NCBI RefSeq assembly: GCF_000153805.1
Contig: NZ_DS022298.1
Location: 1,285,434 to 1,349,433 of the forward strand
DNA length: 64,000 nucleotides
Source: Synechococcus sp. BL107
GTDB taxonomy: Bacteria; Cyanobacteriota; Cyanobacteriia; PCC-6307; Cyanobiaceae
Direction of reading: 5' to 3'
Below the pieces are notes generated by a model. That model saw only the letters and a list, made by a program, of their open reading frames with translations, made no database searches and was not told the origin of the DNA. This document shows, in pieces, positions 23,931 to 64,000 of this stretch (the stretch's first letter is position 1; every line of letters starts with the position of its first letter). The position numbers were made by a program, and so were the translations under genes.

Positions 23931-23996
23931 CACAAATTCTGTTGGTGCAATTGAAGAGCCGGTTGAAGGGTGGTTGCGCAAGTTTGACTTGTTGGA

Positions 23997-24013
23997 AGAA
24001 TGATAATCATTCT
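23997..24013. promoter_or_regulatory. Zur-type operator between znuCB and znuA
   Basis: AGAATGATAATCATTCT is a palindrome broken only at its central base and fits the Fur/Zur family core TGATAATCATT. It sits 67 bp from the znuC ATG and 15 bp from the znuA ATG, placed to control both divergent units. Zur rather than Fur is inferred from the zinc genes. Confidence 0.85.
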
Positions 24014-24027
24014 CAGATTTTTGTCAT

Positions 24028-24945
24028 ATGCGTCGTTCCTCGTGGATCGCGCGGGGCTCGTTGACTTCGCTTTTGGCGATTTCGCTCGCCCAGATCCCTG
24101 TTCAAGCATCGCAACCTTCTGTTGTTGCAGTGGATGGAACTCTGTGTGACTTAACGCGTACCTTGGCTGCAACTGCTGTCAGTGTCACCTGCTTGATTCC
24201 CCCTGGTGGTGATCCCCATGGTTATCGACTCAAGCCGAGTGACCGGCAAGCTCTGTCGAAGGCCGATCTTGTTGTTCACATTGGCTTCAACCTCACACCG
24301 TCTGCCAAGGACATCTCTGTTCCTGCCCCCGTCGTTGCCGTAGGAGAGGTGGCTTTGCCCTCCTATCGAGGCAATGATCCCCATGTTTGGCATGATCCAG
24401 CCAATTCAGCAGCGATGACATCTGCGATTGCTAATCGTCTCTCTCCTTTGTTGTCGGGAGATGCACGTGTGGCGTTTGCCTCACGTGCCGCTAATGCTCA
24501 GAGTGTGCTGGCTGATCTTGGAACTTGGGCTTCCGTTCAGTTTGCAAAATTGCCTGCCAATCAAAGAGTGCTGGTGACTGATCATCAGACGTATAGCCAT
24601 CTTGCTAATCGATATGATCTTGAAGAAATCTCCATGCTTGATAGCTATACAACTGGAGGCGCCTTAAAGCCATCAAGTCTGAATGCAATTACAAAAGCCG
24701 TAACGGACTCTGGTGCAAGGGTGATTTTTTCCTCTTATTTACCGGCTAATAAGTCGTTAAGGCGAATCAGTAAACGCTCCGGATTGCCTATTGCGTCCAC
24801 TCCTCTTTATGGAGAAGGCCTCGCACCGGGTGAAACTGCGGTTTCAACTGCCACAAAAAATATTTGCGCAATTTTGAAAGGTCAGGGTGCTTCATGCGAT
24901 GAAGCTGCTGCCAACGTTCTCGCTAATCGTTGGGCTGATATCTAA
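24028..24945 (+). CDS. znuA: Zinc ABC transporter substrate-binding protein
   Basis: 305-residue periplasmic zinc-binding protein of the cluster A-I family. Signal peptide at 1-28 (Arg-Arg start, hydrophobic core, IPVQASQ). Metal ligands are suggested by PPGGDPHGYRLKPSD, NDPHVWHDPANSAAM and DHQTYSHLANRY; the C-terminus has the paired YGEGLAPGE region and a final Cys-Cys pair (NICAILKGQGASCDEA). The His-rich loop between the first two histidines, usual in ZnuA, is absent here. A very acidic His-rich protein is encoded next instead. Confidence 0.92.
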   Translation: MRRSSWIARGSLTSLLAISLAQIPVQASQPSVVAVDGTLCDLTRTLAATAVSVTCLIPPGGDPHGYRLKPSDRQALSKADLVVHIGFNLTPSAKDISVPAPVVAVGEVALPSYRGNDPHVWHDPANSAAMTSAIANRLSPLLSGDARVAFASRAANAQSVLADLGTWASVQFAKLPANQRVLVTDHQTYSHLANRYDLEEISMLDSYTTGGALKPSSLNAITKAVTDSGARVIFSSYLPANKSLRRISKRSGLPIASTPLYGEGLAPGETAVSTATKNICAILKGQGASCDEAAANVLANRWADI

Positions 24946-24993: not shown

Positions 24994-26073
24994 ATGTCCC
25001 GCAAACGCACTCTTCTGCTGGCTCTACTTCTTTTGCCATTGATTCAAGGCAGACCCTCTGTTGCCCACGGTTCCCATGGTGGCGGTGGAGATGTCCCTGA
25101 GGCTGGTGAATTTGAATTTACTCCGGTCGTGACTCTCGAGGGGCATGCTGGTTTTGAACAGAATCTCGACGACAAACCCAAGCATTACGCGCTTGATGGA
25201 TTGTTCGGTGGAGTATTCCAGTGGGGTTTGGGTTCTGGTGGCAGTTTGTCCATAGAGGCTGCTGTCGGACCGTCTTTGGTTTGGGGAGAAGCGGAGCACT
25301 TCTACGGCAAGGTCCATATCGACGACCACGATGATCACGGCGATCATGCTGACCACGGCGATCATGCTGACCACGACGACCACGACGACCACGACGACCA
25401 CGACGATCATGACGACCACGACGATCATGACGATCATGACGATCACGATGATCATGACGACCACGATGATCACGACGATCATGCAGGCCATGACCATGCT
25501 GGGCACGATCATGGAGATACCTCATATAAGCGGACTGACGTCCGAGGATTTCTTCAGGTTCGATATGCCCCTAATGACCGCTTAAGTGTTTCCGTTGATT
25601 GGAAACCTTATTTTGTCACCAAAGATCAAGGTGATGACATCCAGGGTCTTAAAAATGAAATTGGTGCCGAAATCGTATGGGCACTCGGTGATGGTGACCT
25701 GAACTTCTCTCTTGGTGATGGATTGGAAAGTCTTGCTGACGGACTCTTCCTATCGTTGGAACATCGTCATGGTTGGGAATCTGATGGAACCTGGATGGGG
25801 AACTACACGGACCCGCGTCTTGGTTTTGGTTTCATCATTGGTAGTGATCAAATCAGTGTGAAGCTTGATGGTGGCCCGCGTTTCTATACGCCTGGAAGTT
25901 ACTCAGGCTTGAAGCAGCGTACTGATTTTGCTGGAGAGTTAGAGGTCTCAGTTCCTGTTGGTCAGGCTACGTTGTTTGCCCACTGGCAACCAACTTATAG
26001 CTCTGTCAATGCGCCTGGTTGGGGTGAAGGCTGGCAACACCATGTTGGAACTGGCGTTACCTTCAGCTTTTAA
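24994..26073 (+). CDS. Secreted DDH-repeat (His/Asp-rich) protein, probable metal-binding outer-membrane barrel
   Basis: 359 residues, not a named family. A signal peptide (1-24, ending VAHG) is followed by a short His/Gly stretch (GSHGGGG). Residues 108-174 are an almost pure Asp/His tract, mostly DDH triplets with ADHGDH at the left and AGHDH at the right. The remaining C-terminal 185 residues show alternating beta strands (FLQVRYAPNDRLSVSVDWKP, RLGFGFIIGSDQISVKLDG) and end in Phe (GTGVTFSF), as in outer-membrane barrels. It lies 48 bp after znuA under the same Zur-like operator. Role inferred: concentrating or passing zinc at the outer membrane. Confidence 0.72.
   Translation: MSRKRTLLLALLLLPLIQGRPSVAHGSHGGGGDVPEAGEFEFTPVVTLEGHAGFEQNLDDKPKHYALDGLFGGVFQWGLGSGGSLSIEAAVGPSLVWGEAEHFYGKVHIDDHDDHGDHADHGDHADHDDHDDHDDHDDHDDHDDHDDHDDHDDHDDHDDHDDHAGHDHAGHDHGDTSYKRTDVRGFLQVRYAPNDRLSVSVDWKPYFVTKDQGDDIQGLKNEIGAEIVWALGDGDLNFSLGDGLESLADGLFLSLEHRHGWESDGTWMGNYTDPRLGFGFIIGSDQISVKLDGGPRFYTPGSYSGLKQRTDFAGELEVSVPVGQATLFAHWQPTYSSVNAPGWGEGWQHHVGTGVTFSF
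25318..25514 (+). repeat. Asp-Asp-His coding repeat
   Basis: Tandem 9-bp units of the form GAYGAYCAY, varying only at third positions, encode the DDH tract of the preceding gene. The mix of synonymous codons suggests either old expansion or selection on the protein rather than fresh slippage. Unit number is likely to vary between strains. Confidence 0.8.
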
Positions 26074-48994: not shown

Positions 48995-50536
48995 TCAAGG
49001 GACCAGAGTGATTGGATCAGGGTCAACGTCGTTCCAGGTCGAGCCGTCGCGGACACACACCAGTGGTGTTAATCGAATGCTGAGGGGGCGTCCAGACTCA
49101 ATATCGATTCGAAGGCCGCTGTAAGCAGGTTTGTCTGCAGCGGCTTGCCATTTTCGACCAATAAACAGTTGGCTTTCGGCTACCACTTTGCTGGCCCCGT
49201 CGGCGTCGTTCTCCATGAGCTTGTTTCCCTCCTGTCGCTGATCTCTCAAGCCATAACCGCTTGCACCGCAGATCACCCAGTTGAGGTGGCTGTCGGCATG
49301 TCCAGTGTCGTGGGTGCGCAGCACTTCCATGCAATGGGCATGGCCACTGAGCACAAGATCCACAGGCTTCGCGGATTTGAGGTCTCGCCCTAGGGATCTG
49401 GCAACGCCATCAAAAACTGCTCGCAACTGACGTCGGATGGCGTGCGTGTCAGCCTGATTCCATTTTGTTTTTTCGGTGACGTAGGCGGGATGGTGCATGG
49501 TCAAAATCCGACCCCTGACCTTGGTGTCGCGGTGGGATTCGATCAGCCCTTGTTTCAGCCAATCCAGTTGTTCATGGTCCACCACTGCGACGTGTTGGAT
49601 ACGACGCTGAAGGTCGAAGCATTGCTCCTGGAGCGTCTCTAGTTCATCGAACAATTCGTCGCGCTTCTCTTCCTCCAAGCTCCTGTTGGCCAAAGCTTTG
49701 TAAAGAGAGGATTGTCGCTGCTCAAGACTCGACAACTCACGGTGCAGCTCGAGTCGATTCTGTGTTGATTGCTCGGGGGTGATCAGGGTGTTCGAATCCA
49801 GGGCGAAGACGTCGACGCCGGCATGTTGGAAGCGGTAGTAGCGATTGGGCAGATGGGTGTTGGTGCCGGGCCTGTACCGCATGCAGCGCTGCCTATTCCA
49901 CGTCGCGTCGTAATTGGTGTTGAGGTGATCTTGAAGTTGAGCAGGAGAAATGTCGTCGAGCACATCCAGAAAAACGCTGGCATAGGTTCCTCCTTGTTTT
50001 GAACCGCGCCATCCCATGTCGACGTCGTGGAACCATTGCAGATGGCGACGTAGGGGAAGGGTTAGGCCCGCCAGTAAGGCGATGGGAAGGGAAAGGTCGT
50101 AGTAATCGTGATTCCCCGGCACCGGGAGGAATGGCTTGTTGAAGACCAGACCTCGATGGCTGATGGTGTCCCAATCCTTGCCGTGCTGAAGCCATTCCCG
50201 ATAGGGCTTCAAAAAGTTGTTGCGGTACTGATCCGCGGCTCCAACGAGATACACGACATCTCCGGTGTGGAGCAGATAGGCGGCCTTCGCTTTATGGGGT
50301 AGTAGACGTTCGGCAATTTGACGGGGGGGACTGTTGAAGCGGTGGCGACCGGTGCCGCTATCGCCGATCACTAAAAAGTGAAAGGCGTCGTCTCCTGCTG
50401 GTGTCTCGAACTCTTGATCAAAAACGAGTCGTGTCTGGTCGATCCCTTGTCGGATGAACTCCGGATGCTTCCAGCGCACGCGAGCGGCCATTTTGCTGAT
50501 CTTCTTTTGGATCGGCGGATCGCTTGCGAAGTTCAA
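48995..50536 (-). CDS. Large calcineurin-like metallophosphoesterase
   Basis: 513 residues. Metal motifs are intact: FLVIGDSGTGR, LLHTGDVVYLVG, PVPGNHDYYDL (GNHD), LTMHHPAYV and VLSGHAHCMEV (GHxH). A long charged helical insert sits near 255-300 (ELSSLEQRQSSLYKALANRS). No signal peptide. TTG 50536 overlaps the upstream stop as TTGA; ATG at residue 16 (MAARVRWKHPEF) is an alternative. It follows the lipid-kinase-like gene. Confidence 0.85.
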   Translation of the reverse strand: MNFASDPPIQKKISKMAARVRWKHPEFIRQGIDQTRLVFDQEFETPAGDDAFHFLVIGDSGTGRHRFNSPPRQIAERLLPHKAKAAYLLHTGDVVYLVGAADQYRNNFLKPYREWLQHGKDWDTISHRGLVFNKPFLPVPGNHDYYDLSLPIALLAGLTLPLRRHLQWFHDVDMGWRGSKQGGTYASVFLDVLDDISPAQLQDHLNTNYDATWNRQRCMRYRPGTNTHLPNRYYRFQHAGVDVFALDSNTLITPEQSTQNRLELHRELSSLEQRQSSLYKALANRSLEEEKRDELFDELETLQEQCFDLQRRIQHVAVVDHEQLDWLKQGLIESHRDTKVRGRILTMHHPAYVTEKTKWNQADTHAIRRQLRAVFDGVARSLGRDLKSAKPVDLVLSGHAHCMEVLRTHDTGHADSHLNWVICGASGYGLRDQRQEGNKLMENDADGASKVVAESQLFIGRKWQAAADKPAYSGLRIDIESGRPLSIRLTPLVCVRDGSTWNDVDPDPITLVP

Positions 50537-51840
50537 GATTTCAGAGGTATTGGTGCAACAACTTGCAACGCTCTTGAGTTCACTGTAACCATCACATGTT
50601 GTGCATCAAGAATTTCACCATCAATGACCAGCTTCTGAGATTCGTTTAATTCAATCTTGATTTGGTCGGCACGAAAACAGGCCAGGTCATTGTTGTTTGA
50701 GTTGCTACTCATCACAGCTGACCAGGCCAAACTGGAGAGCACAGATAGGCCGCTTATGGTGTCTTTGGGTGACGCCACAATGATATCGAGTAAGCCATCA
50801 TCAGGGATGACCTTGCCGAATCCTTGTGCCATCACTGATGTGGCAGGAGCGGCGTTGGCGATTGTGATTGCACTGGCATCAACGCGGTAGTCTTTGCCAT
50901 CGATTTGTAGGGTGGCTTGGAATGGTTTCTGATCCACAATTTGTCGCGCACCCGAGAAGATGTACGCCATGGGTCCAAGAATATTTTTTAATTTTCGGTT
51001 GGCTTTGTCTACCATTCCCGCCTCAAAACCAAGGCCGGCCAATAGGATCATTGGCTTGTTGTTGCATATAGCGACATCGACCTGACGGAGATTGCCGAGC
51101 AGCAGATTGGTACAGGCGGCTTTTAATCCTGTTGGTATTCCGAGTGCTACTGAGAATGCGTTAGCAGTGCCACGTGGAATGATTCCAAGGGGGATATCGC
51201 TCCCTTGAATGGCACTGGCTACAGCTCCAACTGTTCCATCGCCACCCGAAGCAATGATGATCGAATCACCGCCATCTTCCCCATCGAAAGCGTTGATTTC
51301 CTTGATCAAGTCTTCTGCCTGTTCGGCTGGGTCTAAACCGGGTTGAGTTTTCCAGATTTGCAACATGAATTGTGGTTCGAGATATCGGCGAATTTCAGCA
51401 AGTTCGATGTCAGGATCCCCCTGACCAGAGATTGGATTGAAGATGAGATAACCTCTTCGACTTCGTTTAATACCTTGTAGAAGACCTGTTGCTGAGGCTG
51501 GGTTCAGTGCGATTGGCAGGTCGTTTAGCAGCGCCGCACGAATCAGTGGTTCAGTTAGAACACTGTTGGCTTGAACCTCGGGTGGTGCTGGGAAATGAAT
51601 CAGCGCACTGATCTCTCCTTGGAGGATCTTTGCTGCCATTGCAATATCACCACCTTTACGGATCGATTGACAAGGGGTAATTGATAGATCTTTCAGACTC
51701 TCTTGTGTGCCTATTTGTTGGAGGATATCTTCTGCAATCAGTAATGAAAATCCAGAGAGGATTTTGGTGTTGTTGCTGACCCAGGTTCCAAGCGCTGGAC
51801 AAGTATTTTGATCGGCATTGAGAACTAGAGTTGAGGGCAT
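50533..51840 (-). CDS. Methylglyoxal-synthase-like/diacylglycerol-kinase fusion
   Basis: 435 residues. The first 125 residues look like an MGS-like domain (CQSIRKGGDIAMAAKIL, LIHFPAPPEVQANSV, RAALLNDLPIALNPASA). The rest is a DAGK catalytic domain: YLIFNPISGQGDPDIEL, IIASGGDGTVGAVASAI (GGDGT), IIPRGTANAFSVALGIP and PDDGLLDI. The DAGK part phosphorylates a lipid or sphingoid base. The MGS-like part lacks an obvious full set of catalytic residues and may be regulatory. The stop overlaps the downstream start. Confidence 0.82.
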   Translation of the reverse strand: MPSTLVLNADQNTCPALGTWVSNNTKILSGFSLLIAEDILQQIGTQESLKDLSITPCQSIRKGGDIAMAAKILQGEISALIHFPAPPEVQANSVLTEPLIRAALLNDLPIALNPASATGLLQGIKRSRRGYLIFNPISGQGDPDIELAEIRRYLEPQFMLQIWKTQPGLDPAEQAEDLIKEINAFDGEDGGDSIIIASGGDGTVGAVASAIQGSDIPLGIIPRGTANAFSVALGIPTGLKAACTNLLLGNLRQVDVAICNNKPMILLAGLGFEAGMVDKANRKLKNILGPMAYIFSGARQIVDQKPFQATLQIDGKDYRVDASAITIANAAPATSVMAQGFGKVIPDDGLLDIIVASPKDTISGLSVLSSLAWSAVMSSNSNNNDLACFRADQIKIELNESQKLVIDGEILDAQHVMVTVNSRALQVVAPIPLKS

Positions 51841-51892: not shown

Positions 51893-52753
51893 TTAAGGGT
51901 TGTTGTCTAAAGCCACCTTCTCTCGTTTGCAGTCGTCACTGTTTCTAGTTTTTCCGAGTGATGTCTGGGCATGAATCTCCTCCGCAGCTGCACGTAAATC
52001 TGCTCGGAAAACTTCATTCGTATGCAGTCGGGACACGGTTGCTGCCCCGATGAGCTGCCCAGCTTGCACGTCGCTGTACCAGTGCACATTGCAAATGTTT
52101 CGGCTCCTTCCGTATTCCAACCCCCGTTGGAGGATTTGATCCTGTTGGTTTGGAGCTATCTCACTGAGGATCAGAGCCCAGGCCCAGCCCACTGAGGTGT
52201 GCCCGGATGGATAAGAGCCGTCGGTTCGAAGTATCGCCTCATCGTCAGGAGTACAGATCGCCTGCCCATTGCCCATGAATGGCCTGCTTCGCTGGTAATG
52301 GTTCTTGGCTTTGTAGGAGGCAAGTCCGGCATCAGTGAGTGAGCGGCGCAGGAGCGTGTAAAGCCTCGGTGTGCGTTCTTCGGAAATCTCAATTCCCACG
52401 CTGCAGGAAAAGATGGACGCGGCTGCAGGAAAATTGAGATCGGCATCCTTGCTTGCTTGTGTCCAGCGTGCTGTGGCTTCAAGTGCAAAATTCGCCCTGG
52501 CGATGTCCTCATCAAGTGCCTGTGCCGCTGATCCTGGAGCCGGCGGTGGAGCCAGCAGTTTGAGGGAGTCCGGAAGAGTCTCTGGAGCGAGGTAGCCCTG
52601 CACAAGACCATGCTTCAGCTCCTTTAAATCACTTGGTGATCCGACATTGGATTCGCAGTAACTCGTTAATTCACCTGCTTCAACAGGACCAACGACAGCT
52701 AGACCTGCTCCGATCAGCAGCAGGATCAATCGGCTGATTCTGGTTTGCAGCAT
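51893..52753 (-). CDS. Class A nonspecific acid phosphatase (PAP2 superfamily)
   Basis: 286 residues with a signal peptide (RLILLLIGAGLAVVGPVEAG). The phosphatase signature is complete: KAKNHYQRSRPF, then SYPSGHTSVGWAWAL and GRSRNICNVHWYSDVQAG, matching KxxxxxxRP, PSGH and SRxxxxxHxxxD. It hydrolyses phosphomonoesters in the periplasm, useful in phosphate-poor sea water. No PhoB box was recognised. Lies 52 bp upstream of the lipid-kinase-like fusion in the same direction. Confidence 0.9.
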   Translation of the reverse strand: MLQTRISRLILLLIGAGLAVVGPVEAGELTSYCESNVGSPSDLKELKHGLVQGYLAPETLPDSLKLLAPPPAPGSAAQALDEDIARANFALEATARWTQASKDADLNFPAAASIFSCSVGIEISEERTPRLYTLLRRSLTDAGLASYKAKNHYQRSRPFMGNGQAICTPDDEAILRTDGSYPSGHTSVGWAWALILSEIAPNQQDQILQRGLEYGRSRNICNVHWYSDVQAGQLIGAATVSRLHTNEVFRADLRAAAEEIHAQTSLGKTRNSDDCKREKVALDNNP

Positions 52754-52924: not shown

Positions 52925-53641
52925 ATGTCGTTGGGCTGGACCTCGATGCAACGTGATCGGCGGCCCGAAGTCATGGATCAGCCGGGGCTCGATCCAGCCG
53001 AGCATGACCGAGCCCTTCAAGGTCTGCGTCGGATCAATGGAATCAGTCGCTGTGTGCCAGGGCTGTTTCGTCACGTTGAGACGCTCGCAGGTGAGAGTCC
53101 CGCCACTCAATTGAGCGTGCTTGAGCTGGCTTGCGGAGGTGGCGATACGGCGATCGAGCTTGCTGCGCTCGCCCGAAGACGCGATTTGGATGTATCGGTT
53201 CAAGCCTGCGATCTGAATCCTGAAGCGGTGCGTCTCGCCCGCCGCAATGTGGCCAGATCAGACAGCAACGTTGGTGTTTTTGTTGCTGATGCTTTGGACC
53301 CGTCTGAATCCAAACAATTTGACGTGGTGTACTGCACCCTTTTTGTTCACCATCTCGATCCACCCGATGTGGTGCGACTCCTCACAGGGATGGCAGCTAG
53401 GGCTCGTCGACTTGTGATTGTTGACGATCTAATTAGGAGCCGTCTTGGGTATTCCTTGGCTTGGATGGGTACGCGACTTCTGAGCCGATCTTGGGTGGTT
53501 CATCACGATGGTCCACTGTCGGTCAAGGGAGCTTTTACTCCTTCAGAGATCCTGGACCTCGCCTCGCAAGCTGGTTTGCGCGACTGTGCCTTGGAACGGA
53601 CCTGGCCTGAGCGCTACCGGCTCTGCTGGAGACCCCACTGA
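52925..53641 (+). CDS. SAM-dependent methyltransferase (polyketide operon)
   Basis: 238 residues. Class I methyltransferase: LSVLELACGGGDTAIELAA (motif I), VQACDLNPEAVRLARR (acidic residue binding the ribose), FVADALDP, VYCTLFVHHLDPPDVVR. It is first in a three-gene operon with an FAD oxidoreductase and a type III polyketide synthase, with 14 and 3 bp gaps, so its likely substrate is a phenolic or pyrone hydroxyl or a ring carbon of that product. O- versus C-methylation cannot be read. Confidence 0.82.
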   Translation: MSLGWTSMQRDRRPEVMDQPGLDPAEHDRALQGLRRINGISRCVPGLFRHVETLAGESPATQLSVLELACGGGDTAIELAALARRRDLDVSVQACDLNPEAVRLARRNVARSDSNVGVFVADALDPSESKQFDVVYCTLFVHHLDPPDVVRLLTGMAARARRLVIVDDLIRSRLGYSLAWMGTRLLSRSWVVHHDGPLSVKGAFTPSEILDLASQAGLRDCALERTWPERYRLCWRPH

Positions 53642-53655
53642 GATGCAGACCTGAG

Positions 53656-54801
53656 ATGCAGAACAGCTGGGATGTGATCGTGATTGGGGCAGGAGTTGCC
53701 GGTGGCTTGGCCGCCTTTGATTGTGCCCGTCGCGGACTACGAGTTTTGCTGGTCGAAAAACGTTCCTTCCCCCGCTGGAAGGTGTGTGGTTGCTGCTTTA
53801 ACGCCAATGCCTTCGCAGCACTCACGGCCTCAGGCCTTCCGAACGTCTTTCATGATCAAGGTGCTGTGCCCCTCGATCAACTTCGTCTTGGTTGGGGTGG
53901 TAAGGCGCTCAAGCTTGACTTGCCAGGCGGTTGGGCACTTTCGCGGGAGCGCTTCGATCAGGCTTTGGTCGACGCGGCTGAGGCTGCTGGCGCAACAGTG
54001 CGCTTTCAAACCAGTGCCGTGCTTGAGGAGATCACTCCCGATGGGCGAATGGTGCGATTACGACCGCCGGGTGATGCTCCCATTGAACGGATCAAGGCCC
54101 GTGTGGTGCTCGTTGCAGCCGGACTGCAGCACCAGGTGATGTCTCCGACCCATGCGGCCAGCTCGAGGAGCACGCCGGAATCGAGGCTTGGGGCAGGTTG
54201 CCTCATCAATGATGACGACGGTTCTTACGAGCCTGGGGCAATCCATATGGCCATTGGCCAGCGTGGCTATGTCGGCTTGGTTCGACGTGAGGATGGTGCT
54301 CTCAACCTTGCGGCCGCTTTCGACCGCGCTGTGGTCAAGTCGTCTGGCGGTGTGGTCCGTGCGGCAGAAGACGTTCTCTATCAAGCTGGCTTCCCCTTGC
54401 CTCGAAGCTTGGAGTCGTCTCGCTGGCAGTTAACTCCTGCGCTCACCCGTCGTGCTGGTCTGTTTGCAGGGGATCGCTTTTTGTTGCTTGGCGACGCGAC
54501 CGGTTATGTGGAGCCTTTCACCGGTGAGGGCATGGCCTGGGCTCTTGCCGCTGGGGCGGCGGTTGCTCCTTTTGTGGAGGAAGCTCAGGGGGGATGGTCC
54601 GTGGATCTCGAGCGGCGTTGGCAAAGGAGGTTGGTGGATCTGACGATTAGCCGTCAACGGGTTTGCAGTGTGTTGTCGACGTTGTTGCGACAACCGCTCA
54701 CCACAAACGCGTTGTTCAGCCTCGGGTGCCAATGGCCTGCGATCCCACAGCGCGTTATTCGCAGCCTCAATCGGGTGTCTCCCCTGATGGCGAGCTCCTA
54801 A
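53656..54801 (+). CDS. FAD-dependent oxidoreductase (geranylgeranyl-reductase/halogenase-like)
   Basis: 381 residues. Rossmann motif VIVIGAGVAGGLAAFDCARRG, LLVEKRSFPRWKVCGCC (the KVCGxx motif common to this group), ALSRERFDQALVDAA, and FLLLGDATGYVEPFTGEGMAW (GDAxGYxxPxxGEG) match the GGR/flavin monooxygenase family. Several members act on lipids or aromatic products. It lies between the methyltransferase and the type III PKS and probably oxidises or hydroxylates the polyketide. Confidence 0.84.
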   Translation: MQNSWDVIVIGAGVAGGLAAFDCARRGLRVLLVEKRSFPRWKVCGCCFNANAFAALTASGLPNVFHDQGAVPLDQLRLGWGGKALKLDLPGGWALSRERFDQALVDAAEAAGATVRFQTSAVLEEITPDGRMVRLRPPGDAPIERIKARVVLVAAGLQHQVMSPTHAASSRSTPESRLGAGCLINDDDGSYEPGAIHMAIGQRGYVGLVRREDGALNLAAAFDRAVVKSSGGVVRAAEDVLYQAGFPLPRSLESSRWQLTPALTRRAGLFAGDRFLLLGDATGYVEPFTGEGMAWALAAGAAVAPFVEEAQGGWSVDLERRWQRRLVDLTISRQRVCSVLSTLLRQPLTTNALFSLGCQWPAIPQRVIRSLNRVSPLMASS

Positions 54802-54804
54802 TCC

Positions 54805-55896
54805 ATGCCTCTCATCCTTCATGGCATTGGTACGGCGGTGCCATCTCGGCGACTGAGCCAGGCAGACGCAGTGCAGGTGGCGCATCGGATCAATGCCGAA
54901 ACCCCTGAGCAGACAAGGCTGTTATCGCGGATTTATCAGAAAACCAAGGTGCTCAGCCGTGGAAGTGTGCTGCTGGAGAAGGATGGAGACGATGGCACGA
55001 TCCAGGAGCGTCTCAGTTTCTACGGCGCCGAAAGCCCGAGTACCGCCGAACGGATGCAGGCGTTTGATGATTACGCCGGTGGATTGGCTCTTGAGGCCGC
55101 TGCAAAGGCGTTAAGCGATAGCGATCTCTCAGCCGCTGCAATCACGCATCTCGTCACCGTTAGTTGCACCGGTTTTCAGTCGCCTGGTGTTGACCTGTAT
55201 TTGATCGAAAAGCTCGCGCTAGCGCCGAGTGTTCAGCGGACCCATATCGGTTTCATGGGATGCCACGGTGCCATGAATGGACTGCGTGTTGCCCACGCCT
55301 TTGCGGAGATGGATCCCAAGGCTGTTGTTCTGCTGTGCGCTGTAGAGCTTTGCAGCCTCCATATGGCCTATGGCTGGCACCCAGAGAAGGTTGTTGCCAA
55401 CGCTTTGTTTGCCGATGGAGCGGCTGCCGTTGTCGCCTCCGCCAATCCTTCCCCTACCCATCAGTCCTTAGCGTTGCGACGTAGTGGCTCGATGGTGATT
55501 CCGAATAGTGCAGATCTCATGCACTGGGAGATTGGTGATCACGGTTTTGCCATGGGCTTGTCGCCCCTTGTTCCTGAAACGGTTGGAGCTGCCTTGTTGC
55601 CTTGGCTGCGAGATTGGCTCAAAGAGCAGGCCATTGAGCTTGAAGCGGTGACGAGCTGGGCTGTGCATCCAGGGGGCCCAAAGATTCTTTCGACCTGTTC
55701 CGAGGTTTTGTCGCTAGAGCCGAACCTATTGCTCGATTCCAGAGCCGTTCTCCAGGATCATGGCAACATGTCGTCGGCAACAATCCTGTTCATCCTTGAG
55801 CGGTTGAGGCGGCGGGAATGTTCCGGTCCTTGTCTTGCACTGGCCTTTGGCCCTGGCCTAAGCGCCGAGGTGGCACTTTTCGATCGACAAGTGTGA
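54805..55896 (+). CDS. Type III polyketide synthase (chalcone-synthase-like)
   Basis: 363 residues, a thiolase-fold homodimer type. The catalytic triad is intact: Cys121 in VTVSCTGFQSPGVD, His288 in TSWAVHPGGPKIL and Asn321 in QDHGNMSSATILFIL. Also visible: GFMGCHGAMNGLRVAHAF and NALFADGAAAVV. It condenses malonyl-CoA units onto an acyl starter; fatty-acyl starters would give alkyl resorcinols or pyrones. Product not readable. Last large gene of the operon; a 40-codon frame follows. Confidence 0.93.
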   Translation: MPLILHGIGTAVPSRRLSQADAVQVAHRINAETPEQTRLLSRIYQKTKVLSRGSVLLEKDGDDGTIQERLSFYGAESPSTAERMQAFDDYAGGLALEAAAKALSDSDLSAAAITHLVTVSCTGFQSPGVDLYLIEKLALAPSVQRTHIGFMGCHGAMNGLRVAHAFAEMDPKAVVLLCAVELCSLHMAYGWHPEKVVANALFADGAAAVVASANPSPTHQSLALRRSGSMVIPNSADLMHWEIGDHGFAMGLSPLVPETVGAALLPWLRDWLKEQAIELEAVTSWAVHPGGPKILSTCSEVLSLEPNLLLDSRAVLQDHGNMSSATILFILERLRRRECSGPCLALAFGPGLSAEVALFDRQV

Positions 55897-55917
55897 TTTT
55901 CATCTGAGGACGTTGAT

Positions 55918-56040
55918 ATGGATGTCGCTGGTGAACCAAACCTTTCTCCATGGTCAGGGGCATGGCCCAGTCGGATGGTTTGGAGCCTGCGGGAGAATTG
56001 GAAAGATCCGAGGGTGTCTGTGCCTCACCCGGTTCATTGA
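55918..56040 (+). CDS. Possible 40-residue protein at the end of the polyketide operon
   Basis: ATG 55918, GAGGA eight bases upstream, 21 bp after the PKS stop, ending at TGA 56038. The sequence (VAGEPNLSPWSGAWPSRMVW) is Trp- and Pro-rich with no family match. The ribosome site and spacing support translation; short length and lack of homologue knowledge keep this tentative. Confidence 0.38.
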   Translation: MDVAGEPNLSPWSGAWPSRMVWSLRENWKDPRVSVPHPVH

Positions 56041-56187
56041 CAAGGGCAGATCAACGCTGGCCTTCGTGGCTTACACAGCCACTATTTTGATTTGAGTTTT
56101 CTAAGGCAATTCTCATTTTCTATCCCCTATGTGGGGGAGGTCTAAGGGTCAAGTTAAGAAGAGACTGGCAAAAGCAACGTTCTCTAA

Positions 56188-57627
56188 ATGGCCCCAATAC
56201 TGCTCTTTATAACTGGCGTGCTTGCAGGCGTCATTGCTGGCTTCATCCTCAGCCGGGTGTTTAGCAAAGGCCGCAGCAGTGGTGGTTCTGGTGAAGCGCG
56301 CTTGCTGGAGGAGCGGTTGCTGAAGGCGGACCAGGGGTTAGAGCAATTCAGCAGGCAGCTTGAACAACAAAGTGCTGACTTGCAGTCTGTGCAGCACGAA
56401 GCACAGCAGGCACGTGAATCTGCGGCTGTAAGCAATACGGAATTAAAAGGGGTCAGCCAAGAGCGAGATGCGCTCAAAGCTGCACATGCCACTGCTTTGG
56501 CTGCGATGGAGCAGATCAGACAGGAGAAGGAGTCTCTAAGCAAAAAAATGGCTGAGGTGGCAGAGCAGCTGCGTTCCCAAGAAAGTCAGACGCAATTTCT
56601 GGCGAAGGCCCGCACAGATCTCCTTACTCAATTCCGTTCATTGAGTGGACAGATGCTCGATGGCTCCCGTGATGCCTTGCTTAAGAGCACCAAGGAAACG
56701 GTGAGTGAACCGTTCGCGAAAGAAGTGCAACAGCTGCGCCAGCAGATGGAGGCTCTTCAAAAAGACTCCAACGAAAAACTTGGCGTTCTGGCTCAAACAA
56801 CGATGGACTTACGCCAGCGCAGCGAAGACGTACAAGGTGCAGCTCAACAGCTCACCTCCGCTTTGCGCTCACCGAATGTGAAGGGTCAGTGGGGGGAGGT
56901 GAACCTGCGCCGAATCCTTGAGTTCGTTGGGCTGATTAGCTACTGCGATTTTGATGAGCAGGTTCATATCGACACCAATGAAGGTGCTTACAGGCCGGAT
57001 TGTGTGATCACAATTCCTGGGTCAAGGCGCTTGATTGTTGATTCCAAGGCACCGATTGAGAGCTACCTCGATGCACTACAGGCGTCTGATGATGCACAAC
57101 GAGAGGCTGCTCTGAGCCACCATTTGAAAAAGGTGCGTAGCCACATTGATCTGCTGAGCAAGAAGGATTACGCCGGCAAGCTCAGCGCCCTAGGCCAGGT
57201 GGTGGATGGGGTGGTTCTGTTCATCCCTGTGGAAGGTGCTCTGTCGATGGCGTTGGAGCGTGATCCGCAGCTGCTGGAGTACGCCTTCAGCAAGAACATC
57301 ATCCTCACCTTTCCCACCAGTCTGCTAGCGATCTTGAAAGGATTGGCGATGACGATCCAGCAGGCAGAGATCGCCAAAAACATTGATGAGATTCAGAGCA
57401 ATGCAGTGGAACTGCACAAGCGCTTTACCGTCTTCATCGACAAGTTCAACGACATCGGCAGCAATCTGAATCGCTTGAACAAGAGCTTCAATGCAGCGGT
57501 GGGTTCAGCGCAAAGCCGGCTGTTGCCGCAGGGTCGGCGTTTTGCCGAGCTGGCAGGGCAAAGCGGTGAGATTGATGTAGCTGATCAGATTGATGAGGTG
57601 GTACGGGAGATCCAGGCCGGTGAGTGA
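56188..57627 (+). CDS. rmuC: DNA recombination protein RmuC
   Basis: 479 residues. An N-terminal membrane anchor (ILLFITGVLAGVIAGFILSRV), a long coiled coil near 30-220 (Gln/Glu-rich heptads) and the RmuC domain (VKGQWGEVNLRRILEFVGL, YRPDCVITIPGSRRLIVDSKAPIESY, FIPVEGALSMALERDP). RmuC limits inversions at short inverted repeats. Converges with the helicase gene (18 bp gap). Probably native rather than part of the island, judged by composition. Confidence 0.92.
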   Translation: MAPILLFITGVLAGVIAGFILSRVFSKGRSSGGSGEARLLEERLLKADQGLEQFSRQLEQQSADLQSVQHEAQQARESAAVSNTELKGVSQERDALKAAHATALAAMEQIRQEKESLSKKMAEVAEQLRSQESQTQFLAKARTDLLTQFRSLSGQMLDGSRDALLKSTKETVSEPFAKEVQQLRQQMEALQKDSNEKLGVLAQTTMDLRQRSEDVQGAAQQLTSALRSPNVKGQWGEVNLRRILEFVGLISYCDFDEQVHIDTNEGAYRPDCVITIPGSRRLIVDSKAPIESYLDALQASDDAQREAALSHHLKKVRSHIDLLSKKDYAGKLSALGQVVDGVVLFIPVEGALSMALERDPQLLEYAFSKNIILTFPTSLLAILKGLAMTIQQAEIAKNIDEIQSNAVELHKRFTVFIDKFNDIGSNLNRLNKSFNAAVGSAQSRLLPQGRRFAELAGQSGEIDVADQIDEVVREIQAGE

Positions 57628-57645
57628 TCTCAGCCGTTGTTGACG

Positions 57646-60600
57646 TTACGTCGAGTGATTTGAAGCTGCTGAAATTGTTTGCAAGAACTCTTCTCTGCTC
57701 ATTGATGTTTCCCCTGTCGCGAGCTCTTCCATAGCCTTTGTTGGAAACAACGGACTCCCCGGCACCCATAGCTCGCAGCTGTCGCTGTTGTCCTCGTAAT
57801 AGGAGGCATTGCAGGTCACGCGCATTTCCTCATCGAGGCCGGGTTGGGTCCAGGCGAAGTCGTAGGCACCGATCGGTCGAGAGCTGCATCCCGGTGGCAG
57901 CAGCGACGGCTGTCTGAGGATCGCTTCGAGATCAGCCAGGGTGAGCGGTGAAGGCTGCAGGCTGTTCACCACTTCATGGATGGCATCAAGGTCCTGAAGG
58001 ACATCATCAAGATCGAGGCCCTTGATCTCGGACTCCTGCTCCACAGCTGCCACCGCTGATGCCCTCGCCTTCTCCCGCTGATCACGGCCGACGAGGGTGG
58101 CCTGGGAGATGGAGCTGGAGGCCTTGGCCAGGATCGGCTGCAGCTTGCCCACAACCTGCTCGAACATCGCAATCCGGCCTTTCAGCGCCCGATAAACATC
58201 GGCTTCCACAGTTCCATCGAGATGCAGGTTGACGATCTGCATCTGTTCATGGGTCTGGCCGATGCGGTCGATACGGCCGATGCGCTGCTCCACACGCATG
58301 GGGTTCCACGGCATGTCGTAGTTGATCAGGGCACCGCAGAACTGGAAGTTCAGGCCTTCGGCTGCTGCATCGGTGCAGAGCAGGATCTCGGCATTGCCTT
58401 CCTTGAAGCCCCGTTTGGTGGCCTCGCGGTTCAGGGCTTTCCAGACCCCGCCCTTCTGCAGGATCTCTCCGCCGCGACCGGTAAAGGCCATCAGGCTGGT
58501 GCGCTCTGCGCTGATCAGCAGCTCCTTGAGGGCATCGACGGTGTCGGTGTACTGGGAGAAGACGATCACCTGTTTGTAGCCCTGGTCCTGCATTTGCTCG
58601 ATGGCCTTGAGGAACTCGGCCCCCTTGCTGTCGTGGCCGACCAGGGGCTTGGCCTGATCGAGCAGCACCCCGATGGCTTCGAGTTCCCCTTGGAGCGAGG
58701 GCTCCTGGAAGGCGCTCTGCATGCCCTCCAGGTCGAAGGACTGCTCGTCGCTGATGTCGTCGTCTTCTGCGGCAGCCGCGTCTTCCTCCAGCTGTTGCTG
58801 CTGGCCAGCCAGGCGCTTCTCCAAGGTGGAGACCAGGGCGGCCACGCTGCTGGCGAGGCGGCGCCGGTAGATCGTCATCACGAAGCCCACTGCCGATTTC
58901 TTCTGGCCGGTTGCCTGGGCGTACTGACTGGAGATGAAGCCCTCCACAGCGTCGTACAACGCACGCTCCTGCGGCGTGCTCTCCAGGAAGCGGTCGTCCA
59001 CGTGGCGAGTTCCGATGGCCAGATCCATCGATCCCTGCTGCTTGTAGGCCCGCAGCAGGTTGCGGCTGTGGCGGGAGATCAGCCCCTGCACAGGAGTCCA
59101 GCGTTTCGCCAGGGCAAGGGAGGCCTGGCGGATCTCGACACTGAGATTGCGGCGGGAGAGGGGGTCCCTGTCATTGAGGGCGCGCAGGGCCTTGCGTTTG
59201 CGCAGCGGCGTCCTACGCAGCTCTTCCGGCATGGCATTGTCCGGTGCCTCGCCAAACGCCGACACACTGCTGCGCCACAACCCAGCCAGGTAGGCAAGTG
59301 TGGCCTCATCCGGGTTCTCCTTTTCCACCCACTCGAAGAACCTCTCGAAGGCGTCTTCGGTCCACTCGGGGGGCATGCCCAGCAGGGCGAGCAGGTCCCA
59401 CACTTCCAGCTCACTCACCTGCATGGGCGTAGCGGTGAGCAGCAGCAAGCCATTGGTGCGCTGGCTCAGCTGCTGCATGAGCTGCATCAGGGTGTTGGGG
59501 CGGAGGCGCTCGCCACCGCTGCTGCTGTTCTCCCGACGGGTGCGGGCGTGGTGGGCCTCATCGAGCACCACCAGGTCGTAGGGCTCGGCTTCCAGCAGAT
59601 CTTTGTGGCGGTCGCGCCGCCGCATCAGGTGGCTGGAGACCAGCACGTAGGGCTCTGCTGTCCAACTGCTCCGGTCTACCGGCCGAGAGAGCCCATCGGG
59701 ACGGAAACGGGTGGGTTGCCAGTCGAGTGACTTGCCGCTGTAGATGGGCCAGTCGAGGCCAAACTTCTCGCGCAGTTCCCGCTGCCACTGCTTGAGCACC
59801 GACGCAGGCGCCATCACCAGCATGCGGCGGGCACGGCCGCTCAACCAGGCCTGGCGGAGTAACAGGCCGGCCTGGACCGTTTTGCCGAGGCCCACCTCAT
59901 CCGCGATCAGCAGCCTGGGCGGCCACTGCTGCCAGAGGCGCTGGAAAGCGCGCTGTTGGTGGGGCCAAGGAGTGACAGCACTGGTGCCTTCACCGACCCG
60001 TTCGGCTCCAGGCAGATCGCTAGCGGCGGCCTGGAGCACGTAGCTCCACACGATGCGGCGCCGTTCATCGATGTCGGGAACGATCTCAACGACGGGCTCT
60101 GGCTCTGGTGCTGGCAGATCGTTGAGGAAAGGTTTAAGGCGACGGGGCAGTGCCTGCTCGGACGGCGCATAAATGGCCAGTTGCTGGCGGATTGCCTCAG
60201 GGAGGGTGAAGGTTCGGGCGCCGGCGTCCTGGTTTTGCCAGAGCCGCAGAAAGCCGGCCTCCAGATCATCAATGGCCTCGACACCACCGGGCTTCCAGGA
60301 GCAGAAGGTCTGGATGGTTTCGAAGTTGCTGGTCCAGCCGTTGGGGGTTTCGTTGACGCTGCCGCTGAATCCCAAACGCTGCCCGTGCTTGTCTTCGATC
60401 ACGCCCTCCTTGGCGTGGAAGATGGCGCCGTCATTGACGATGTGCCCGTCGATGAGGGGCAGCCCTACGCGGATCTCCAGGTGGCCCCGGCTCACCAGCC
60501 ACGCCAGGAGCTCGGCCCCGAGAGCGGCGTCACCTTGGCCACCCGGCTCAACACCTTCGAAGGGGAAGTGGGTTGAGAGGTGATCGGTGAGAACAGTTTC

Positions 60601-60876
60601 AGAGGGAGTTCCGGCTGCCAGAGCGGTGATGTCGGCTTCGCTTAGGAACACGCCGGTGATCAACCGCATCTGGCCGCGGCCCAGGCCATCAGGTGACGCA
60701 GCCACCAGGTTTTCTACCCCCTCCAGTACCTGAAGCAGGGAGCGGCTGGTGAAGTAGCCGGTGACGCGCCAGTAGCGGACGGCATCCATCAGGGCCGGTT
60801 TGTAGAAGCCCTCCAGCAGACTCTCCAGGGAGCTGCTGAAACGCCCTCTCCAGGTGTGATCGGCAAGGCCGGCCAT
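57646..60876 (-). CDS. PLD-domain/SNF2-type helicase
   Basis: 1076 residues. An N-terminal phospholipase-D-like domain has AIFHAKEGV near 150 and GFSGSVNETPNGW. A superfamily 2 helicase follows: ADEVGLGKTVQAGLLL (Walker A near 325), LVVLDEAHHART (DEAH near 437), LLLTATPMQ, VIVFSQYTDT, CTDAAAEGLNFQ and RVEQRIGRIDRIGQ (motif VI near 869). Such PLD-SNF2 proteins occur in anti-phage loci next to DUF1156 methyltransferases. GC content is visibly above that of the rest of the window, consistent with transfer. It starts 6 bp after the methyltransferase. Confidence 0.9.
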   Translation of the reverse strand: MAGLADHTWRGRFSSSLESLLEGFYKPALMDAVRYWRVTGYFTSRSLLQVLEGVENLVAASPDGLGRGQMRLITGVFLSEADITALAAGTPSETVLTDHLSTHFPFEGVEPGGQGDAALGAELLAWLVSRGHLEIRVGLPLIDGHIVNDGAIFHAKEGVIEDKHGQRLGFSGSVNETPNGWTSNFETIQTFCSWKPGGVEAIDDLEAGFLRLWQNQDAGARTFTLPEAIRQQLAIYAPSEQALPRRLKPFLNDLPAPEPEPVVEIVPDIDERRRIVWSYVLQAAASDLPGAERVGEGTSAVTPWPHQQRAFQRLWQQWPPRLLIADEVGLGKTVQAGLLLRQAWLSGRARRMLVMAPASVLKQWQRELREKFGLDWPIYSGKSLDWQPTRFRPDGLSRPVDRSSWTAEPYVLVSSHLMRRRDRHKDLLEAEPYDLVVLDEAHHARTRRENSSSGGERLRPNTLMQLMQQLSQRTNGLLLLTATPMQVSELEVWDLLALLGMPPEWTEDAFERFFEWVEKENPDEATLAYLAGLWRSSVSAFGEAPDNAMPEELRRTPLRKRKALRALNDRDPLSRRNLSVEIRQASLALAKRWTPVQGLISRHSRNLLRAYKQQGSMDLAIGTRHVDDRFLESTPQERALYDAVEGFISSQYAQATGQKKSAVGFVMTIYRRRLASSVAALVSTLEKRLAGQQQQLEEDAAAAEDDDISDEQSFDLEGMQSAFQEPSLQGELEAIGVLLDQAKPLVGHDSKGAEFLKAIEQMQDQGYKQVIVFSQYTDTVDALKELLISAERTSLMAFTGRGGEILQKGGVWKALNREATKRGFKEGNAEILLCTDAAAEGLNFQFCGALINYDMPWNPMRVEQRIGRIDRIGQTHEQMQIVNLHLDGTVEADVYRALKGRIAMFEQVVGKLQPILAKASSSISQATLVGRDQREKARASAVAAVEQESEIKGLDLDDVLQDLDAIHEVVNSLQPSPLTLADLEAILRQPSLLPPGCSSRPIGAYDFAWTQPGLDEEMRVTCNASYYEDNSDSCELWVPGSPLFPTKAMEELATGETSMSREEFLQTISAASNHST

Positions 60877-60882
60877 GGCTGC

Positions 60883-63800
60883 CTAAACCTCAGCCAGTTC
60901 CGCGAGCACCATTTCCAGCTGCTTCGGTGCCGGCACCTCCTCCGCTAAGGCAAGCCGACGCAGGTTCTCCAGGGCTTCGAAGTCGGAGGCAGCAGGCGCA
61001 GCGGCCTTCACCGGATCAAAGCCGGTGTAGCGGGCTGAGAGGGGCAGCACCTCCAGCACGGCCTCCAGAGCAGTGAGGAAGTCGGCGCTGTTAGCCAGGC
61101 CGTTGTCATCGAGCAACTGCTTGGCAGCGTTGAGGTCGATGCTGCGGGCCCGATGGGCACAGTGGTGGATGGCATCGATCCAGGAGCGGGTGCCATCAGG
61201 GGAGCCGAGCTTGCCTTTGGTGGCGCGGGTGGAGCTGTCCCAAAGGATCAGGTTGCTGGTCTTCTTCTCGGCCAGCACACCCACCACGTCTTTATCAAGG
61301 TCGAGACCCACGACGCGAGCGAGGCGCAGGGCTTCATCGAACGGGAACTGCGGCGCCTCAAAGGCATCCCAGGCCAGCACGAACCACTCGGTGAGCGGAT
61401 CGAGCTGAGCGCGGCGAGAGCCGGAGGTGAGCTTCTCCATCCGCCAGGCCTTCACCTCACGGCGAGCAGCATCAAGGGCGTCTTCAGGGGTGACGGCGTA
61501 GGGGTCGTCTTCCTTGAGCAGTTCATCGAGGGTGAGCTGAGCACGACCTCGCTTCTTTGTTTTTTCTTCGATGGGCTTGGGCTGGCCGCGCTTGATCGGC
61601 CAGTGCAGGGAGAACTCCTCCAGGGCCGGACCGAAACAGGAGAGGTAGAGGTCAACACCGCGAATGCCACCGGCCTGGAACTGCTCGATGCGCTGGCGCA
61701 CAGCCGCCTTCACGCGGGGTTCAAGGTCTTCCCAGTACTGCACCCCGTCTTCTAGCTTCTGATCAGGGCGTGGGCGGCACACTAGAAAGATCGTGCTGTT
61801 GGCGGCCGACTTGTCCTTGATGTGGAGCGAGCCCTCAGCCTCAGTGTTGATCGGCCAGGAGGCGGTGATGGCAAAGCCGGCATCGATCAGGCCCTTGGTC
61901 AGTGCATCCCAGGCCCCCGTGGCTTTGTGGGTGAACATCAGGGTCATCACACCGTCATCCTTAAGGACGCGGCGACATTCCGCGAAAATCTCGGCCATCT
62001 TCTGCTGGTAGTCGAGGCCAGCGAGAGCCTTCGCGCCCTTCTTGCCCTTGTGTAGGGCGGGGTTGGCAACGGCTTCGTTGTCTTTATCGGTGAGAGGCGC
62101 CATGAACAGCTCGGGGTAGAGCAGGCCAGCAGTGCGTTTGAGCCACACGTAGAAGAAATCGCTCAGCTCCGCATACATCACGTTGTCGTAATAGGGCGGG
62201 TCCATCACCACCGCATCTACCGTGCCGTCATCGAGGTGGTCCAGTGAATCACCGGAGCCGCAGGAGATCACCACCGGAGCTGTGGAGCTGGGCTGAGCTG
62301 TAGCCGTACTCGCTGAAAACAGGGGACCTGCGTCAGCGACCGACCCATTGTCTGGAGAGATGAGGTCGGTGAGCTCGCCGATGCACTTGGCCACCTGCCC
62401 GAAGGCCCAGTCGTAGCCGAGGCCCACGATCAATGGAGCCATCTCTGCATAGGACCACTTGAATCCAAAGTCATGACTGTCAAAAGTGTTGACCATGACT
62501 TCGCGGCTCCTGTGCCAACGCGTCATCCGCGAGTTGTAATCGCGAAGCTTGTCGAGAGCGAGGGCGATGCAGCCGAAAGCGGATCGAGCGGTTTCTGTGA
62601 GCCCACCAGGCTTGGCCGATTCTTCATTCAGAAGCGCTCGGAAGATCTCCACGCTGGTGCCATGGCAGAGCAGCTGGCGGCGGGAGAACATTTTTGACCA
62701 GTGTGTGTCGCCTCTCTTTAGAGGTAAGTCAGTACCCACAGAATCCCCATGGTCCCCAGTTTTGTGGCCAGGGGGAATTTCCTCCGAAGGGATGCAATCC
62801 AGCGCTTCCCACTCCGGCAACTTCTCCGCCATGGCGGCTTCGATCGCGGCGCTGTTGTCGTCTTCCGGGAGTGGGGCTCGGTAGCCACGTTCCCACTTGT
62901 CTTTCTTGGGCTTGCCGGTTTTGGTGTACTGGGTGGGCAGCTTGTGCTTGAACACCACTGCATACAACTGCTCTCCCATGTCACCGGCCTGAGCTTGGGC
63001 CTGTATCTGAGAGGCATCAATCACCCGGCCGCAGTCGGGATAGGGGCAGGTGGAATCGCCGCCTTTCACCGTGCCGTCACTCTGCTCGCCAGCACTGCCC
63101 ACGATCACGAAGCTGCAGTGGCGACTGGCATCACCTGGGCCATCGCCCAACTGCGGCACCACCTTCACGCCAGTACCATTAGGCGCCAGCTTCCAGTTGG
63201 GAGACAGCGGCACCCTGCCGGCGCAGTATGGGCAGTGGATGGTGCGGGCCCAGAGGAAGCCATCAGGCCGGCAATCTGCTGAGGGTTCCGGTGGGAAAGC
63301 CCAGCTCAGGCGCTCGCGCACGCGGCTGGAGAGTTCATTGCCCAGCCGCTTCACCTCATCGACCAAGGCAGGGCCGAACTTCGCCGGCCACTCGAAGGTG
63401 GCCTTCTCCACAAGCACCGCCACGGGGTTGATGTCGTTGGCGAAGGTGGTGCAGCCCAGGCGCAGGGCCTCGAACGGGATCGCCCCGCCACCTGCAGTGG
63501 GATCGAGCACGGTTGGCCGAGAAATGCCGAGCTTCTGGGCTTCCTCTTGAAGCCAGAACAGCTCCTTCTCGCTGGGTGTGTGACTGAACGCACGGCTATA
63601 GCCGTAGGCGTTGGCACCGAGACGGACACCTTCACGCGTTGCTTTGGCGATCCGCTTCTTCGCCGCCACCGGATCCCCATGGATCCCGAGCATGTGCATG
63701 AACGTGCTTCGATCAGCATCGGCCGGCAGTAATGACGCCAACACCGCAGCCCGTGAAGCCACCAGCGGACGCCGCGCCCACCACACATGCAAGCGGTTCG

Positions 63801-63894
63801 GCGCCGGGAAGGGCGTCATCGGCGTCCGTTCACGCACGCCTTCGATGCCGATTTCGGCAATTGGCAACCACTCTTCGATCAGACGTTTGGTCAT
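60883..63894 (-). CDS. DUF1156-type DNA methyltransferase
   Basis: 1003 residues from ATG 63894 (MTKRLIEEWLPIAEIGIEG); a longer frame runs to the edge but overlaps the upstream gene. N-terminal DUF1156 block PNRLHVWWARRPLVASRAA, SAM motif I VLDPTAGGGAIPFEALRLG (near 131), Cys-rich spots (HCPYCAG, CPYPDCGR) that may bind zinc, and the catalytic DAVVMDPPYYDNVMY (DPPY, near 565) followed by MTLMFTHK. DPPY indicates N6-adenine or N4-cytosine methylation. With the helicase it resembles a modification/defence module. Confidence 0.92.
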   Translation of the reverse strand: MTKRLIEEWLPIAEIGIEGVRERTPMTPFPAPNRLHVWWARRPLVASRAAVLASLLPADADRSTFMHMLGIHGDPVAAKKRIAKATREGVRLGANAYGYSRAFSHTPSEKELFWLQEEAQKLGISRPTVLDPTAGGGAIPFEALRLGCTTFANDINPVAVLVEKATFEWPAKFGPALVDEVKRLGNELSSRVRERLSWAFPPEPSADCRPDGFLWARTIHCPYCAGRVPLSPNWKLAPNGTGVKVVPQLGDGPGDASRHCSFVIVGSAGEQSDGTVKGGDSTCPYPDCGRVIDASQIQAQAQAGDMGEQLYAVVFKHKLPTQYTKTGKPKKDKWERGYRAPLPEDDNSAAIEAAMAEKLPEWEALDCIPSEEIPPGHKTGDHGDSVGTDLPLKRGDTHWSKMFSRRQLLCHGTSVEIFRALLNEESAKPGGLTETARSAFGCIALALDKLRDYNSRMTRWHRSREVMVNTFDSHDFGFKWSYAEMAPLIVGLGYDWAFGQVAKCIGELTDLISPDNGSVADAGPLFSASTATAQPSSTAPVVISCGSGDSLDHLDDGTVDAVVMDPPYYDNVMYAELSDFFYVWLKRTAGLLYPELFMAPLTDKDNEAVANPALHKGKKGAKALAGLDYQQKMAEIFAECRRVLKDDGVMTLMFTHKATGAWDALTKGLIDAGFAITASWPINTEAEGSLHIKDKSAANSTIFLVCRPRPDQKLEDGVQYWEDLEPRVKAAVRQRIEQFQAGGIRGVDLYLSCFGPALEEFSLHWPIKRGQPKPIEEKTKKRGRAQLTLDELLKEDDPYAVTPEDALDAARREVKAWRMEKLTSGSRRAQLDPLTEWFVLAWDAFEAPQFPFDEALRLARVVGLDLDKDVVGVLAEKKTSNLILWDSSTRATKGKLGSPDGTRSWIDAIHHCAHRARSIDLNAAKQLLDDNGLANSADFLTALEAVLEVLPLSARYTGFDPVKAAAPAASDFEALENLRRLALAEEVPAPKQLEMVLAELAEV

Positions 63895-63904
63895 GGTTCT
63901 GAAC

Positions 63905-64000
63905 TCAGTTCGCAGAGAGAAGAAGACGCAGTGCCGCCAACACCCGTCGCGGGTTCCTGCGGTGCATCGCCATGCCCAGCCAATAGGCCGATTCTTCACG
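63905..64000 (-). CDS. C-terminal end of an upstream gene of the island (partial)
   Basis: 31 codons before TGA 63905-63907 are in the window: ESAYWLGMAMHRRNPRRVL then ALRLLLSAN. The gene reads in from the right edge and ends 10 bp before the methyltransferase start, so it is in the same operon. Arg-rich and helical. Family not determinable from this fragment. In related loci a DUF499-type ATPase is often nearby, so this is one hypothesis only. Confidence 0.6.
   Translation of the reverse strand, partial: REESAYWLGMAMHRRNPRRVLAALRLLLSAN

Follow-up and report, generated by a model that had tools for sequence, protein, structure and literature searches.

What three neighbouring genes of Synechococcus sp. 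BL107 make together, and whether a small frame behind them belongs to the same pathway, is the question raised by this locus. It lies in a stretch of 64,000 nucleotides (the window) from a genome of 2.285 Mb on a single contig. The earlier note had described a compact type III polyketide operon in a picocyanobacterium, with a methyltransferase, an FAD oxidoreductase and a chalcone-synthase-like enzyme packed within gaps of 14 and 3 bp. We found three ORFs on one strand with exactly these gaps (Table 1), and Pfam matches agreed with all three enzyme types. HidA matched Methyltransf_25 with an E value of 2.5e-15 and NF004851 with 310 bits, above its cut-off. Pairwise comparisons with sister genomes, where codon positions align, gave dN/dS values of about 0.08-0.17 across hidA, hidB and hidC (about 0.09-0.13 for hidA); the comparison of hidC with G089 was invalid, as an indel shifts the ungapped comparison. 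These values point to strong purifying selection on all three genes, indicating that they are functional and constrained rather than chance ORFs. Together with a conserved gene order, this bears out the three-gene operon of the earlier note. No match to a sigma-70 promoter was found upstream of the operon. A structured RNA within it was also considered and rejected, since the Rfam search of the operon returned no match.

Table 1. Features of the operon and its surroundings (plain numbers are window positions)
Feature	Coordinates	Strand	Basis
Genes resembling a metal ABC transporter	22466-24945		
Protein with long Asp/His repeat	24994-26073		DHDDHDDHD repeat
Lipid kinase gene	50533-51840		
PAP2 phosphatase gene	51893-52753	-	
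hidA-type class I SAM-dependent methyltransferase, 238 aa	52925..53641	+	Pfam Methyltransf_25, NCBIfam NF004851
hidA-hidB junction duplication	53639-53663		TGAGATGCAG ACC TGAGATGCAG
hidB-type FAD-dependent oxidoreductase, 381 aa	53656..54801	+	Pfam FAD_binding_3/DAO, AF2 model
hidC-type type III polyketide synthase (alkylresorcinol synthase clade), 363 aa	54805..55896	+	PF00195/PF02797, AF2 model, Foldseek
Small frame, 40 aa	55918-56040		
25-bp repeat, copy after hidC	56046-56070		GCAGATCAACGCTGGCCTTCGTGGC
SNF2/PLD helicase	57646-60876	-	PADLOC HmaA
DUF1156 methylase	60883-63999	-	PADLOC HmaB
DUF499 ATPase	L168:788-3871	-	PADLOC HmaC
407-aa protein beside DUF4336, island end	L168:9485-10708	-	C-terminus with LRH, AARRLL, then Y
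25-bp repeat, far copy	L168:10862-10886 (G000:C1:1359861-1359885)		23/25 match
DUF4336 body	G000:C1:1359852-1361003		

Among the picocyanobacterial neighbourhoods fetched, each one with the full set of three genes had the order hidA-hidB-hidC, and these included 11 other genomes of the genus that carry the operon. A relative was encoded in 585 candidate stretches of named public genomes, of which 80 were kept; 61 of these matched the order exactly. Most of the 61 belong to Planctomycetota or picocyanobacteria, and some to Acidobacteriota, Gemmatimonadota, Elusimicrobiota and others; several of the remaining 19 lay on short contigs. The spacing was more variable. At the hidA-hidB junction we observed a short imperfect duplication, which accounts for the 14-bp gap; several sister genomes have 1 bp here and others more. 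Across relatives, this gap ranged from 1 to 64 bp, or the two genes overlapped slightly; some of the larger values depend on a start codon chosen by script. Outside the genus, hidB and hidC overlap by 10 bp instead of being separated by a gap.

The chalcone/stilbene synthase N and C domains (PF00195, E 5.7e-28; PF02797, E 7.8e-21; both above the gathering cut-off) cover the full length of HidC, which places it among the type III polyketide synthases. Its closest PDB sequence is PKS18 of Mycobacterium tuberculosis (full-length alignment, E 1.1e-49), and PKS18 was also the top Foldseek PDB match (TM 0.91) of the AlphaFold2 model, which had a mean pLDDT of 93.7. We then compared the active site with the triad Cys121-His288-Asn321 given in the earlier note. 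His288 and Asn321 held, aligning with PKS18 residues 313 and 346, and the residue aligned with PKS18 175 was Cys153, within the motif GFMGC153HG. Cys153, His288 and Asn321 were each invariant in 56 of 56 HidC homologues. Cys121, which lies within an SCTGF stretch and is itself invariant in 56/56, aligns with a Ser in PKS18. On this alignment the nucleophile is Cys153 and not Cys121. Long-chain acceptance by PKS18 is controlled by residues 144, 148 and 205 of its acyl tunnel, and these correspond to the small residues T122, S126 and C183 in HidC, an arrangement consistent with a long-chain starter; a C205F variant of PKS18 is present in the PDB.

The operon is of the published hidABC (hierridin) type, which earlier work found to be common in Synechococcus and Prochlorococcus, and is not new but ordinary for the group. 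The hidABC genes of Cyanobium sp. LEGE 06113 were assigned to hierridins B and C by Costa et al. 2019, according to the accounts of that work in PMC8086630 and PMC10896814. Genome mining by Larsen et al. 2021 (PMC8086630) gave 47 hierridin-like clusters, most of them from Prochlorococcus and Synechococcus; the authors reported that hidA>hidB>hidC is the more conserved order, that the Synechococcus/Prochlorococcus clusters fall in the HidC clade, and that the signature of this clade is a Met where CHS has Phe265. LA31, another Synechococcus, has been reported with a hierridin B region (PMC8928756). In HidC of the window, the Phe265 position is Met250, mapped by hand on a conserved Val-Pro anchor, and this Met was invariant in 56/56 homologues. 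The earlier note had also asked for a phylogeny of the synthase. In a maximum-likelihood tree, 42 picocyanobacterial HidC sequences formed one group with support of 99/95, and the planctomycete and other bacterial sequences lay on the other side; the Cyanobium LEGE 06113 HidC was not knowingly among the sequences, and the tree does not reveal the direction of any transfer. Some of the nearest HidC relatives come from single-cell genomes of Synechococcus.

These results bear on the product, for which a methylated, oxidised resorcinol or pyrone had been suggested. When expressed in C. glutamicum, planctomycete enzymes from operons with this order yield pentadecyl- and heptadecylresorcinols; a single further methyl, probably C-linked, appeared when the Gimesia maris methyltransferase and oxidoreductase were added, with the role of the oxidoreductase left open (PMC10896814). 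A methylated and oxidised type III polyketide is supported, and the Met gatekeeper and the planctomycete products favour a resorcinol over a pyrone. Since the closest solved relative by sequence and fold, PKS18, is a pyrone synthase, HidC could instead be a long-chain alkylpyrone synthase whose product HidA and HidB decorate. We consider this very unlikely, because planctomycete homologues from the same type of operon make alkylresorcinols and because HidC has the gatekeeper of a clade in which the characterised enzyme is a resorcinol synthase.

Two other readings concern HidB. Because no enzyme is known for the chlorination of hierridin C (PMC8086630), HidB was tested as the missing flavin-dependent halogenase, in which case the operon product would be a halogenated phenol. 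Its AF2 model (pLDDT 93.6) has the fold of the group A flavin monooxygenase/halogenase superfamily, and its best PDB matches by sequence and fold include the flavin halogenases Bmp2, PltM, ChlB4 (TM 0.81) and CndH. Despite this shared fold, a canonical halogenase is not supported: the halogenase motifs WxWxIP and FxPxSxG were each absent from all 52 HidB homologues, 51 of which have EPFTGEG in place of FxPxSxG, and hydroxylases of the same fold score nearly as high. The halogenase assignment therefore strikes us as highly improbable. HidB might also be a reductase of the geranylgeranyl-reductase type; the end product would then be an alkylresorcinol that is reduced and methylated, not a hydroquinone. 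Larsen et al. 2021 (PMC8086630) described the HidA/HidB steps as reduction and methylation, and the nearest NCBIfam model to HidB is that of the geranylgeranyl-reductase (GG-red) superfamily, TIGR02032; the score of 112.6 bits lies below the model cut-off of 158.8. The fold search was dominated by monooxygenases and halogenases, and the extra ring hydroxyl of hierridin B (PMC10896814) needs an oxidation, so a reductase seems distinctly unlikely. HidB is probably a ring hydroxylase or oxidase.

Gene content, order, conservation, family membership, catalytic and gatekeeper residues and fold were obtained directly. Our analysis of these features leads us to propose, with considerable confidence, that the three genes form a hidABC-type operon with a predicted hierridin-like methoxylated alkylphenol product made via an alkylresorcinol. 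In this proposed pathway, Cys153 of HidC would load a long-chain fatty acyl thioester, and HidC would add three malonyl-CoA and close the tetraketide to a 5-alkylresorcinol. HidB would then oxidise the ring, most likely by hydroxylation, and HidA would methylate it with SAM to give the methoxylated alkylphenol. The alkylresorcinol product, a starter of about C14-C18, the order of tailoring and O- rather than C-methylation are what we infer from characterised relatives. The site of HidA methylation is not fixed by homology, because the G. maris methyltransferase appears to be C- rather than O-methylating. Chain length or cyclisation by HidC could likewise differ, since it is about 56-61% identical to the Cyanobium-type enzymes.

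The earlier note had pointed to a small Trp/Pro-rich frame with a good ribosome site after hidC; this frame is not part of the operon. The 40-aa frame matched no Pfam or NCBIfam family, and no homologue of it stood behind hidC in 10 other genomes of the genus that carry the operon. Only one relative, G382, shares the DNA directly after hidC, and there it lies between hidC and an intact DUF4336 gene (424-codon ORF, PF14234, E 6e-116). Against G382, the frame showed neutral change (dN 0.038, dS 0.042) and a 1-bp indel, a frameshift that removes its stop. In G390 and G401, the corresponding extended reading of DUF4336 is interrupted by stops. On these grounds, the frame was rejected both as a peptide gene and as a fourth member of the operon. 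The DUF4336 body was present in 19/19 near-complete genus genomes, and in the window genome a short 5' stretch of DUF4336 follows hidC while the body lies 18.4 kb downstream. This comparison shows the frame to be a chance ORF within the stranded upstream DNA of this core gene.

The 5' end of DUF4336 is interrupted, directly after hidC, by an insert of 18.36 kb, which starts at 56071, so that window positions 56071-64000 are its first part. Its GC content is 60.0%, compared with 53.8% for window positions 1-52900. The insert is bounded by a 25-bp direct repeat, which is the exact point where the left and right homology to the uninterrupted G382 overlap. The island genes comprise an RmuC-family gene, an SNF2/PLD helicase, a DUF1156 methylase (HmaB-like) and a DUF499 ATPase (HmaC-like), the last three making up a candidate Hma-like anti-phage defence system. 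At the far end, the 407-aa protein gave nothing convincing in Pfam, PHROGs or the PDB. Judging by its C-terminus, it looks like an integrase, a diverged tyrosine recombinase. Homologues with 77-94% identity adjoin DUF4336 in G186, G089 and G385, and a fragment does so in G384; paired site copies or stranded DUF4336 5' ends were found in G147, G004, G383, G397, G089 and G384. These arrangements suggest that the DUF4336 5' end, part of a protein-coding gene, is a hotspot of repeated integration, a more unusual by-product of the analysis than the operon itself. A tyrosine recombinase family that ordinary homology searches miss has been described at tRNA sites of marine picocyanobacteria (PMC10187409).

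Several further observations were made around the operon. The PAP2 phosphatase gene, which is oriented divergently from hidA, is complete in the window genome, and in the two nearest operon-bearing genomes (L157:3685-4086, L158:9134-9535) the match is limited to its first 134 codons. This gene, the lipid kinase gene and the RmuC gene are patchy across the genus. Elsewhere in the window, the protein with the long Asp/His repeat is probably metal binding, and its gene adjoins the genes resembling a metal ABC transporter.

The operon was present in 69/201 genomes of the family, 12/34 of the genus and 6/19 near-complete genomes of the genus, showing that it is accessory and patchy in the genus. 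Phage-borne copies were sought as well and rejected, the only candidate being one distant polyketide synthase on a viral contig, 32% identical and without hidA or hidB. The patchiness makes a comparison of operon-positive and operon-negative strains practical, and such a comparison could settle the role of these phenolic lipids in abundant ocean phototrophs. A more speculative proposal, which we hold tentatively and rate as rather unlikely, is that the hidABC product of open-ocean Synechococcus is an alkylresorcinol-derived hydroquinone unlike hierridin B, serving as a redox-active membrane lipid, and that the operon comes and goes as an accessory module next to an integration hotspot linked to DUF4336.

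The present analysis corrects the HidC active site, removes a false fourth gene and adds a clean, complete hierridin-type gene set from a marine Synechococcus-type picocyanobacterium. This set resembles hidABC of Cyanobium sp. LEGE 06113 in its three gene types, their order, the clade Met gatekeeper of the synthase and a picocyanobacterial host; it differs in that hierridins B and C are assigned to the Cyanobium genes, whereas the window operon has a predicted product and no chlorinated one is known for it. The operon of Planctomycetota (G. maris, Rhodopirellula baltica; PMC10896814) has the same methyltransferase-oxidoreductase-type III synthase order, and HidC from planctomycete loci is 44-58% identical to the window HidC over the matched segment, yet it belongs to another phylum and a separate side of the HidC tree, and the methyltransferase of G. 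maris seems to act on carbon. With PKS18 of M. tuberculosis (PDB 1TED), HidC shares the type III synthase fold, the catalytic triad and small acyl-tunnel residues, but the two are about 28% identical, PKS18 makes alkylpyrones, and it is the hid operon that pairs its synthase with HidA and HidB. The srsABC genes of Streptomyces griseus likewise combine a type III polyketide synthase with a methyltransferase and a flavoprotein, yielding methoxylated alkylresorcinol and quinone lipids. The srsABC synthase belongs to a different clade from HidC (Larsen clade 2.22, PMC8086630).
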